A stretch of DNA of 64,000 nucleotides from Pilaira anomala (taxonomy: Eukaryota; Mucoromycota; Mucoromycetes; Mucorales; Mucoraceae): positions 62,001-126,000 of the forward strand of contig JAIXMQ010000051.1 of NCBI GenBank assembly GCA_025716855.1, written 5' to 3'. Below are positions 59,324 through 64,000 of the stretch, in pieces. Within the stretch, counting starts at the first letter, position 1. The number at the start of each line of letters is the position of its first letter. Below the pieces are notes generated by a model. It was not told the origin of the DNA, did not search any database, and was given only the letters and a program-made list of their open reading frames with translations. The position numbers and the translations under genes were made by a program.

Positions 59324-59500
59324 TGTTCAAAAAGAGAGTGTAAAAAGAAACAGTTTAGATAAAAGAATCCAAAAAAAGGAAAACGGGATCGTACCAATTT
59401 AATGCGTGCTTACGCGCGAGTCACGTTGTAATATATAATTCAAAACCTGGGTGTATGTTTTCTCGAGAAAGAGAACTCCTTCTCCTTTCTTGTTCTAAAT
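59324..59500. promoter_or_regulatory. Short bidirectional promoter ROGDI/HEM14
   Basis: 177 bases between opposite start codons. It contains a relatively GC-rich element, TTACGCGCGAGTCACG (59411-59426), which includes an ACGCG core, in otherwise AT-rich DNA. Function inferred from position only. Confidence 0.5.
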
Positions 59501-61176
59501 ATGTCTTCTTCAGTTGCTATCTTGGGTGGTGGTATATCTGGCTTATCCAGTGCTTATTACTTATCTAAAACCTCACCAAAAACAAAAGTCTTGCTGATTG
59601 AGGGCTCAAAACGACTAGGTGGTTGGATTCGTAGTCAAAGAGTTTCCCCTGGGCTTCATACTACCGTACCTAACGAACCTTATGACCCTTCCCAAGTACT
59701 TTTCGAAGTAGGTCCTCGAAGTCTTCGACCTGTTGGTCCTGGAGGTGCTGCTATTCTTTCCATGGTATATATATGCATACACAAACATATATTAAACATA
59801 AGAAATACTCATCTCAATAAAAACAGGCAAACGATCTTCAATTGCAAAACGAAATGCTCTTCGTCTCAAAATCTGATCCTTCAGCAAAGCACCGATATAT
59901 TTATTATAAGGATCAAATAAACACTTTACCAAGCTCACTCATTTCGTTACTATCAAAGCAACCACCTGTCTTTAAATCCGTTTTAAAATCCATCTTATCC
60001 GAACCTTTTGTCCCGGTCTCTACCCTCGAAGATGAATCATTATATTCGTTTGTGAGCCGTCGATTTAACGAGCATGTTGCCTTGAACTTGGTAGGTGCAA
60101 TTACACACGGTATTTATGCAGGTGACGCTAAACAATTATCTGTACGATCAACTATGCGTATGTTATACGAGACTGAGCAAAGAAGTGGAAGTGTGGTCCG
60201 AGGTATGTTTGAAAAACCATTACCTTTATCCATTGCAGAACAATCCATGGTAGAGGAACTTGGTGACGGTGGTAAGATCACAAAAGAAACAAGTGTCTTT
60301 GGGTTTAAGGAAGGCACTGAAACTTTAATTCGACAATTAAAGAATTACTTGAAACAACAAAAGAATGTAACCATCATTACAGAAAAACAAGTTAAAAAAC
60401 TAGAAAAAAATAATGATAAAATGAAGGTAATACTATTCAAAATTATTTTACAGAGATTCAAAAAACTAATATATTAGCTTGGCCGTTAGATTTATGCAGA
60501 TGATTCTTCTTCGGTAAAAGTGGACCATGTGATTTCTACGATTCCTTCCAACAAGTTGGAGGGATTATTACCAGTTTCTTTACCAAACTTATCTTCTAAT
60601 CCTTCAGTAAATGTAGCCGTCATCAATTTTGCATACGATAATATCGCATTGAAACTCAATGGATTTGGATTTTTAACACCTCATCCTGACTCGTCCTATA
60701 AATTACCAGTTCCCGGTACGCTGGGTGTTGTATTTGATTCAAACGCAATGCAAGGTCAAGAAAAAAACAATAAGCTAGTAAAGTTAACTGTCATGATGGG
60801 TGGACATATGTGGGATAAAACCTTTGGCGGTGCCACTGTATCTCAAGTAGATTCAGAGGTTGTATACGAGAAAGCACGCGAAGCACTTGCGGCTTATTTG
60901 GGTATATTTGAGACTCCAAAGTACAGTATGGTTAATATTTTGCCAGAATGTATTCCTCAATACGGTGTAGGTCATGAAAGTAGGTTAGCTGAGCTTCATC
61001 AACGTATGGCTCAAGAGTATGGACATATGTTGAGTGTATCTGGTGCGAGTTACTTAGGTGTAAGTGTTCCAGACTGCGTCAAGAATAGCAGGCTGCTGGT
61101 AGAAGGTCTTGTGGGAACTGGTGCCTTAGGATCCCGTAAAGATATTGTTACTGGTTTGAACCGAGCTGTTGGATAG
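59501..61176 (+). CDS. HEM14: Protoporphyrinogen oxidase
   Basis: FAD enzyme of the mitochondrial inner membrane that oxidises protoporphyrinogen IX to protoporphyrin IX, the penultimate step of haem synthesis. Model: join(59501..59764,59827..60426,60490..61176), 516 residues, typical length. The N-terminal FAD-binding GxGxxG motif reads AILGGGISGLSSAYYL, followed by LIEGSKRLGGWI and FEVGPRSLRP. ITHGIYAGDAKQLSVRS is the conserved PPO block. The C-terminal part includes LLVEGLVGTGALG, whose final FAD-contact glycines are in place. There is no obvious mitochondrial presequence beyond the short MSSS, as in many PPOs. All introns are GT-AG, and the second donor follows DKMK. Confidence 0.9.
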
Positions 61177-62194
61177 AAAAAAACGATAAACAAACTTTAC
61201 ATTCCCTACGTTAATAAAATATGTACTTAATTACAAACGAACTTTCAAAAATTTATTCAGCTATCTTTGGTTTTACATTAAAGTAGTTGATAAAAAAGTA
61301 CTATCTGTTTATTTTTAAAAAGTTTAGTTTAGTTTAATATAATAGAACAATGGGCTAATTTTATAGCATTGTTAGTTTCAAAATTCTTCTTTCAAGCTTT
61401 GCTGTATCTTCTTATTTCCGATTTTCTGTAATCTTTTAACCATATTGTTTCCCCATACAAAGAGAAGTAAAGCATTGTCACTATTATTTTAAGTCAAAAT
61501 AAGATCCCTATTTTGCACTATTGTTAGATTCTGATAGTATAAGTAAGTCGAAAGATATACGATGTATAAAATATAGTTTGCGTGAGCACCAGCTCCTGTT
61601 GTATAAGTAAAACAACTTAAAATGTTATTATTTATAATAAACAAAAAAGGATAAAAGCTACAACGAACTATTAAAAAATTCAAGGGAATCAATTTTACAA
61701 TTTAAAAGAAAAATAAAGAAAAATATTATAAAAGGGATCAAATAGGTATATTGATAAGACAAGTCTTTTAAGATTATTGTGTAAAGTGAATTTTTTGATT
61801 TTATTGTAAGAATTAAGCGGTGAGAAAAATAGGAAAATCCTCTTCATGCATTTTCCGTAGGATGGAATATCCATACCATGGATATTCCATCACATGGATA
61901 ATCCACAAAGAAAAATTTAGAAACAGAATTAGTAGTGTGTAGCACTATTTAATTTTATAAAAATTGTATTCCATTAGATAAAAAATAATCTTTTATACAG
62001 GGTTTCCCACTATTTTTGGGAATTAATATGGAAATTAATGGGAAAAAATTTAAAAGTTACTAAAACCAAGTTTGAAAGTTGATGGATAAATTTTGAGGAT
62101 TAATTAAATAAAGTTTGAAAAAGTTAGTTAGTAATGTGATTCTTACATAGACGTTTTAAGGCTTTACCTGTATCAAGGTTTTCCAAAGCGATAA
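61177..62194. other. Intergenic region between HEM14 and Fanzor relic
   Basis: Convergent spacer. No gene recognised. It contains a perfect hairpin at 61861-61891 (listed) and a smaller inverted pair TTCCCA/TGGGAA at 62005-62023. It lies on the 3' side of the Fanzor frame, where a mobile element's end would be expected. Confidence 0.45.
61861..61891. repeat. Perfect 14-bp palindromic hairpin
   Basis: GATGGAATATCCAT at 61861-61874 and its exact reverse complement at 61878-61891, with a 3-base loop (ACC). A further CATGGATAATCCA follows at 61893-61905, a near-copy of the right arm. Could be the end of the element carrying the Fanzor relic. Confidence 0.8.
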
Positions 62195-64000
62195 CTAAGG
62201 AGGATAATTATTGTTTTTTTTTCCCAGTTTAGTCGGGTCATAGTTTTTTCTTTTGATTGAGTTTTTTTTTTTTTTTTTTTTTGACTTCTCAAGAATATCG
62301 CAGGTTTCAGACCAGTTTCCCAAAATTAAGATACAATCCTTCCCAAACTTTTTTCTGATGTTTTTTGATAAACGTTTGGTTGATTGAATTTCATTGATAT
62401 GGGCACTGAGCTTCATCTTTCTAAAGGGGATTAAGTCTTTCTTTCTCTTATCCTTCTCTACATCTTCATTTGAATAGTATTCTTGCATCTTACAATTAAC
62501 TTCAGCTCTAATCTTTAAGTATTCAACAAATGCTCCCTTCTTTACTGTGAGTGGCGAGCACTTGCTGAGTCTGTCCTCGCAATCTTGAATGTCTTTTGGT
62601 TTCAACTGTTGCCGCAGCTTTTTAAATTTTGTTGATTTTGTTTCCTTTGCTTTTTGATTTCTCGTGTATCTGTAAATTTTTTTATTATTGACTGTGCTAT
62701 ATTCGTGCATACAATAAATTAGATCATGTCGACCAGGATCAATGAATACACATTTTCCATCTGTAGATCGTAGTTCCTCGTTGGGGATTTGTTCAATATA
62801 TTTGAGTTCTTCATCTTCCACTGAACTGGCCTTGGGATTACTTGTATCACCTTTAGACGTGTCGAAATTTTGTTTTATAACAGAAATACGTATGTCATCT
62901 GTCATTATAGTTCCTCTGAACTTCATGGAGCTATCTAGGCCTTGATCTTTGAAAGGTTTTGAAGATAAATTTAGGACTTTTCCCAGATATACCCTTTATC
63001 CAATTTGCTTCTTTGGGAATTTTTCAAAATATGATTGTTCAATATCATAGTATCAATAGTCATATATGATGGATTAAAAGTTGTTCTTACAGGAAAGTAT
63101 TGAAATGATTTGAACTTGTTAGACTCGCATATCTCTGTTAATTTAAAATAAGCAAGTGTTTTCCCGGATTTTCTACAGCATCATAATAAATGGAATCTTT
63201 TTTAAAATTGTAAGTTTCAGGATAAGCAGAAAATATGTTCTTAATATAGTTGATAATAACCTTTTGATCTTGGAATTTCTTTGGGATTCGTCTGATATCT
63301 CTTAATGAAATAGCTAATTTAAGTTGAGTAGCAGGTTCTTGAATGTTACTTTTAATTTTGGCTTTAGTTTCCTCTTTTGAGTAGCCTTGCTTTTTCAAAT
63401 CGCTAGTCAATTGTGAGATACGTTGTTTTAGTCCAATCAGTTTATTGACAACCATTCTCAGCTTATTTCCAAAATCTTTAATGATTGCATTAGTACAAGC
63501 AGTTTGTATTTTTGTAGCCTCATATGAGGCTATTTGTTGAGCAAAGGGTAGTTTGATTGGCGTGAATGATGAATCTCTATAATACGATGCTTTATACTTG
63601 TTTATCATCTCTCTATATGCCTTTACTTTGCCCGATAGTCTGTTAACATTCACAGTTTTACTGTCTAAAAGTGATAAAAACACTTCCTTGTAAAAACCTT
63701 GGACTGCATACTCTTCTAAATTAAGATTAAGCTCTTGGATAAATTTTTATCTTGTAAAGGAATAGGTACATATGGGTGACAATAATATGAACGCCATGAA
63801 CGGGTTTCTTCAAAATAGAAAGATATTAAGGTTTCCATCCTATTCCAGTAAATGAAGACTTTACAGTCATAACCTTTTTACCATTACCATCAGTGTTTAT
63901 TGATAATGTATTCACCTGTAAAAATAAATGTGAGCAAAATAATACATTTAAACCCGTTAAAAATACTTACAGAGGTATATTGTTCAACGGATCCCTCCAT
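62195..64000 (-). pseudogene. Fanzor (eukaryotic TnpB-like RNA-guided nuclease) relic, partial
   Basis: Fanzor proteins are eukaryotic relatives of transposon TnpB and Cas12, with a RuvC nuclease core. Reading inward from the edge: an exon starting at 64000 (MEGSVEQYTS, donor GTAAGT at 63970), acceptor TTACAG, VNTLSINTDGNGKKVMTVKS, then stops; HIIVTHMYLFLYKIKIYP; a helical part at 63138-63683 (QTACTNAIIKDFGNKLRMVV, KQGYSKEETKAKI); a frameshift near 63150; FKSFQYFPVRTTFNPSYMTI; a stop near 62978; and finally 62195-62926 with RuvC-I-like CVFIDPGRHDLIYCMH (Asp at 62738-62740) and ILILGNWSETCDIL, the GDWS-type block. The expected DEFRTS.LC..C zinc ribbon and RuvC-III end (DRD.NA) are missing after a poly-lysine run (poly-A). 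It therefore has at least three lesions plus a lost C-terminus. It is partial: sequence beyond 64000 is unseen. Confidence 0.7.

Follow-up and report, generated by a model that had tools for sequence, protein, structure and literature searches.

The window analysed here, 64,000 nucleotides of DNA from Pilaira anomala, a fungus of the Mucorales (C173:62001–126000, within a 34.25-Mb assembly), ends in a Fanzor1 gene that its sequence marks as decayed, a relic and not a working Fanzor1. The gene lies on the minus strand of a TA-flanked element of 2,616 bp (61998–64613) that extends past the window, and its start codon forms the final three bases of the window. The recognisable parts are as follows.

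63971–64000, minus strand: predicted exon 1, with the start codon at 64000–63998.
63138–63746, minus strand: 202-amino-acid open stretch, the Fanzor N-terminal half.
62971–63180, minus strand: stretch with FKSFQYFPVRTT in a separate frame.
62195–62995, minus strand: 266-amino-acid open stretch that retains the first catalytic aspartate (Asp; CVFIDPGRHD), the remaining active site being gone.
61998–64000, minus strand: portion of the Fanzor1 element inside the window, its flank read from L003.
61996–61997, no strand: TA target-site duplication on the gene's 3′ side; the partner TA, 64614–64615, lies outside the window.

The two longer open stretches match solved Fanzor1 structures far beyond what chance would give. 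The closest solved relative is PpFz1 of Parasitella parasitica, matched by 62195–62995 at E 2e-48 and by 63138–63746 at 6.4e-40; the former also matches SpuFz1 at 8.9e-15. These matches bear out the Fanzor identity proposed in an initial annotation made from the letters alone. The three blocks on which that annotation relied lie on the minus strand in the order it gave, FKSFQYFPVRTT in 62971–63180 and both CVFIDPGRHDLIYCMH and LILGNWSE in the single open frame 62195–62995. It had placed stops and frameshifts between the blocks; frame breaks do lie upstream of the last two, but no stop separates these from each other. For the window pieces no Pfam match passed the cut-offs, and a genome search with the TNB family gave two matches, both under cut-off. 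DPG at the first catalytic Asp, a Fanzor1 signature according to a figure legend in the available part of PMC10711439, reads CVFIDPGRHD in the window and FIDPGRRD in the paralogue L005. Of the Fanzor motif D...[TS][TS]xx–C4 zinc finger...RD, as given in the available text of PMC3627910, the first Asp alone is left in the window copy. A 408-bp catalytic segment has no match there, and several frame breaks accompany the lost C-terminus, so the proposal of a decayed gene without its catalytic end holds.

Related copies are numerous. The two open stretches matched 116 (62195–62995) and 51 (63138–63746) places in the genome, many of them pieces of a single copy or arm fragments. Copies were cut out from the best 30 matches of each search and merged into 31 regions, which makes the counts lower bounds: 26 belong to family A (25 with a pair on C143 counted once, hence at least 25 copies), 4 to family B, and 1 is more distant (C1:1167149). 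One 633-codon open frame is common to three family-A loci; two of these, on C143, share flanks, leaving two independent places. The C143 loci (254189–257275 and 362028–365115) point in opposite directions and have the same flanks, which makes them either a large inverted duplication or a palindrome of the assembly. The spliced family-A paralogue, a predicted protein of 697 amino acids from three exons with predicted introns, matches PpFz1 at E 1.9e-178 and SpuFz1 at 5.1e-54, the only distinct solved sequences matching it up to E 0.1. A sequence search returned 43 proteins which, where an organism was named, came from Coemansia and from genera that we take to belong to Mucorales. The paralogue contains IDPG, DEFKTSSICPSC, a second cysteine pair and WNRD, and, read by eye, the Fanzor motif is intact in it; the glutamate (Glu) of DEFKTSS is taken as the catalytic Glu from the PpFz1/SpuFz1 alignment and residue numbers in the available text of PMC10432273. 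The search for intact paralogues, also recommended initially, thus yielded open-frame sequence at three loci with active-site motifs present. The four copies of family B are nearly identical and have an open frame of 609 codons. Two shortened derivatives, C135:284061 and C164:31775 (1,363 and 1,757 bp), occupy different sites; the same two gene-body end parts are matched in both, at the same offsets. By simple counting, the ratio of nonsynonymous to synonymous rates (dN/dS) is 0.37 when pooled against one reference copy, with a median of 0.55 over 230 pairs, indicating that coding selection acted in the family's history.

The boundaries first assigned to the relic, 62195–64000, cut the element short; following the sequence past 64000, as had been advised, located its end at 64613, with the 5′ arm outside the window. 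Family-A ends read GGGAAAC(C/T)CTG and then TA, with small variations, and TA follows every family-A 5′ end found and all 3′ ends except that of C180. Terminal repeats and TA duplications at many independent insertions confirm that the gene is transposon-borne, in the manner of a non-autonomous Tc1/mariner element, and no transposase gene was seen inside the window element. A genome-wide search for the terminal 24-mer, allowing as many as 3 mismatches, gave 93 places, against 0 for the backward pattern used as control. At 32 of the 93 it reads TACTGGATTTCCCACTGTTTTTGG, a sequence with 3 of its 24 bases unlike family A, and at least 10 pairs of TACTGGATTTCCCACTGTTTTTGG ends stand about 1.5 kb apart, each enclosing a DDE_3 match. 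Family-A termini thus have 21 of 24 bases in common with the ends of a Tc1/mariner family that carries a transposase in this genome. In a third Fanzor family (C163), one end is exactly the 24-base mariner terminus and the other departs from it by one difference. The single element of the TACTGGATTTCCCACTGTTTTTGG family that was read has a 279-amino-acid frame with DDE_3 at 6.3e-23; because this frame has NNAP where another mariner transposase of the genome (L115) has DNAP, that copy may be inactive. An apparent Fanzor–transposase chimera at C72 was rejected, being a mariner nested in a family-B copy; the nested mariner is L115 1967–3694, with a 380-amino-acid DDE_3 frame.

The gene's 3′ end also holds a candidate guide RNA, about where the initial annotation expected a scaffold.

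61996–62204, minus strand: candidate omega RNA scaffold, coordinates read by eye.
62182–62204, minus strand: scaffold hairpin, of which the window copy retains 5 of 6 pairs.
62167–62172 with 61996–62001 (terminal-repeat end plus TA), minus strand: scaffold closing stem, 6 of 6 pairs in the window copy.
61976–61995, minus strand: would-be guide position, flanking DNA beside the TA, placed by the Fanzor1 layout in PMC10432273.

Terminal repeats and duplications are reported to form part of Fanzor1 guide scaffolds (PMC10711439, available part). Here a hairpin and a terminus-pairing strand just after the stop codon are common to the families. The closing strand pairs at 6 of 6 positions in family A (TACAGG/CCTGTA) and in family B (TACTGT/ACAGTA), at 4 of 6 when A and B are exchanged either way, and at 5 of 6 in the C type (C162, C163; TACTGA/CCAGTA), where pairing with A or B ends gives 4 of 6 and 5 of 6; these paired changes come from three families only. 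Rfam gave no match in 61500–64000 up to E 0.1. The 5′ arm was also considered as the source of a second guide RNA: all six hairpin pairs occur in 2 of 22 5′ arms versus 11 of 23 3′ arms, and the closing stem is similar on both (14 of 22 and 16 of 23).

The arms themselves point to how the catalytic end was lost. Elements bear inverted arms of about 450 bp, the 5′ arm mirroring the gene's 3′ end minus the 408 bp that encode the catalytic Glu, the zinc ribbon and the last Asp. Two features locate this in the window.

62308–62451, minus strand: 144-bp coding block, with an inverted copy in the 5′ arm at 64181–64324.
62308–62309, minus strand: junction without the 408-bp catalytic segment, which 16 of 21 two-armed copies hold on the gene side.

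The 21 are the independent two-armed copies among the 26 family-A rows, leaving out C101 (5′ arm only), C172, C180 and C183 (5′ arm without the 144-bp block) and the second C143 copy. The segment is present on the gene side only in 14, on both sides in 2 (C113, C224), on neither in 5 (C135, C173, which is the window copy, C203, C204:96219, C208) and on the 5′ arm only in 0; the empty last class favours conversion over simple crossover. The window gene end shows the 5′-arm junction and lacks a short insertion near the reading-frame end that is present in 14 of 23 3′ arms and absent from 21 of 22 5′ arms. From the shared junction and this second marker we infer an overwritten gene end. A gene-body tree, for which C135 and C164 were too short, includes six of the seven homogenised copies and shows them dispersed, with support weak in places. 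Arm-to-arm conversion, and not the gradual decay first envisaged, is most likely the best explanation of the lost C-terminus. For the locus as a whole, a Tc1/mariner-type non-autonomous Fanzor1 element whose gene end was overwritten through arm recombination is very probably the right description.

Several observations weigh against this description. C203 and C208 carry further deletions at the junction, so that largely complete arms on both sides are left in only three of the five segment-less copies, C173, C135 and C204:96219. A T in the hairpin fits the 5′-arm type, yet it occurs in 8 of 20 3′ arms keeping the position and carries little weight. Arm homogenisation beyond the segment is weak: identity is 0.943 within versus 0.937 between for the 13 non-homogenised copies (permutation p 0.003; 3 of 13 5′ arms nearest to their own 3′ arm) and 0.914 versus 0.905 for all 21 (p 0.045; 5 of 21 nearest their own). 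Many nodes of the gene-body tree have low support. Among the matches listed for DDE_3, the only family searched, none was a transposase whose termini are exactly those of family A, and the predicted fold of the scaffold does not exceed shuffles in stability (z −0.77).

Two other routes to the missing segment were weighed. It is improbable that the both-arms-deleted state arose once, long ago, and then spread by transposition, instead of through recurrent conversion: the deleted junction is old, being common to the 5′ arms of unaffected copies, and the weakly supported nodes leave room for such a history, but C204:96219 groups with the unaffected C204:63827 at support 0.94, and C135 and the unaffected C164 match the same gene-body ends, which suggests one internally deleted lineage. 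Slightly less credible still is an independent internal deletion or ordinary decay without the 5′ arm, in keeping with the other frame breaks of the window copy and the extra deletions close to the same place in C203 and C208, but at odds with a junction that is that of the 5′ arms, with the missing 3′-arm marker insertion and with the reverse exchange in C113 and C224. A catalytically dead but maintained Fanzor was rejected, 0 of the 5 segment-less copies having one open frame across the gene. Arm exchange is not named in the titles of the Fanzor literature listed, and a literature search on gene conversion of terminal repeats gave no titles, in a scope that took in few subscription papers.

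The element ends also differ in their flanks, counted for ends with an adjoining TA. The call of the C183 5′ end contains 4 errors, and the C224 5′ end, which lies some 0.9 kb outward of the arm, was taken from L079. The count leaves out three 5′ ends whose calls contain 6 errors (C172, C180 and C1:1167149, none ending ATA), the 3′ end of C180, which has CA in place of TA, and the second of the C143 copies. In 13 of 23 copies the 5′ flank ends in CATA, versus 2 of 23 3′ flanks read inward (Fisher 0.0012). Among two-ended copies it stands on the 5′ side only in 13 and on the 3′ side only in 2 (sign test 0.007); its background at the window's 11,942 TA sites is 0.053. The corresponding counts are 17 of 23 versus 4 of 23 for [CA]ATA (0.0003) and 17 of 23 versus 8 of 23 for ATA alone (0.017; background 0.36). 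Six of the 23 have no ATA at the 5′ flank, namely the window copy (AAATGTA), C101, C113, C135, C145 and C208, and four of these are among the seven arm-homogenised copies. Family B has TATATA at 4 of 4 5′ flanks and CATA, read inward, at 1 of 4 3′ flanks (C24).

Such a bias would be expected if RNA-guided cleavage helps retain elements. It is quite possible, instead, that it stems from a transposase whose choice of target differs between the two ends. TCTG replaces CCTG before the TA in 11 of 22 5′ ends and 2 of 23 3′ ends, so a transposase could distinguish many ends, and CATA is likewise present at the shortened C164, which has lost most of the gene. Yet where at least 17 terminal bases are identical at both ends (8 copies), CATA still occurs 6 times on the 5′ side and 0 on the 3′ side (p 0.03), or 5 to 0 at 25 or more (p 0.06), and in the related mariner family, where 29 of 31 ends were read, the 19 distinct flanks, several nested in repeats, hold CATA once and ATA 6 times. 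Inversion by arm crossover was considered for the two copies that have CATA at the 3′ end alone: terminal-base markers fit it in C208 but not in C145.

These features can be assembled into a mechanism. The element would be a non-autonomous Tc1/mariner-type transposon with one Fanzor1 gene, presumably mobilised in trans. The gene's 3′ end would encode a guide-RNA scaffold closing on the terminal repeat and TA, with flanking DNA as the guide. In a working copy, the protein–RNA complex would cut the empty site beside the ATA/CATA motif, and repair from the element-bearing chromosome would then restore or copy the element. In the window copy, arm recombination would have replaced the gene end, removing the catalytic Glu, zinc ribbon and last Asp, and frameshifts would have broken the frame further. 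The biological role of Fanzors is stated as unknown in the available text of PMC10432273. Tentatively, the Fanzor may provide a mariner-type transposon with a drive for retention or homing: the elements with near-symmetric ends that survive would mostly be those with the nuclease's motif in their 5′ flank, which would show as an orientation bias, while the long arms would make the drive self-limiting, arm exchange repeatedly deleting the nuclease. The genome offers many insertions whose ends are alike, copies both dead and open, and a transposase family related to them, which makes the retention hypothesis testable by flank counts, and arm exchange offers a concrete route by which such an element could disarm itself.

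Two neighbouring genes frame the element. The initial annotation placed the relic next to HEM14, and the adjoining gene is compatible with this on Pfam evidence only.

59432–61176: flavin amine-oxidoreductase-type gene, HEM14-compatible, its 3′ end beside the element.
64822–64894 in window numbering (L003 3322–3394): tRNA-Phe (GAA) gene, about 0.2 kb beyond the element's 5′ end.

Among known systems, the mariner-associated Fanzor1 elements of Bao and Jurka (PMC3627910) share the TA duplications and the Fanzor-only elements with mariner termini; the available text of that paper has no mention of the arm exchange seen here. PpFz1 (PDB 9cf0–9cf3; PMC11423790, available text) is homologous to the spliced paralogue over nearly its whole length, apart from a stretch of about 105 amino acids (chain positions 986–1092) unmatched by the paralogue and taken as the FRI insertion. 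Its reported ATN motif agrees with ATA at 17 of 23 5′ flanks; unlike PpFz1, the window copy is without most of the active site. The Spu-1 element of Spizellomyces punctatus, which carries SpuFz1 (PMC10432273, available text), is likewise a single-gene element with inverted repeats, has a conserved CA upstream of the 5′ repeat and a CATA motif, and has its guide RNA at the 3′ repeat, where our candidate scaffold also lies. The flank bias is thus known in kind from Spu-1, and what is new lies in the similar long arms and in a related transposase family for comparison. In contrast to the 30-nt repeats of Spu-1, the arms here are about 450 bp long, contain coding sequence and have been exchanged in several copies.
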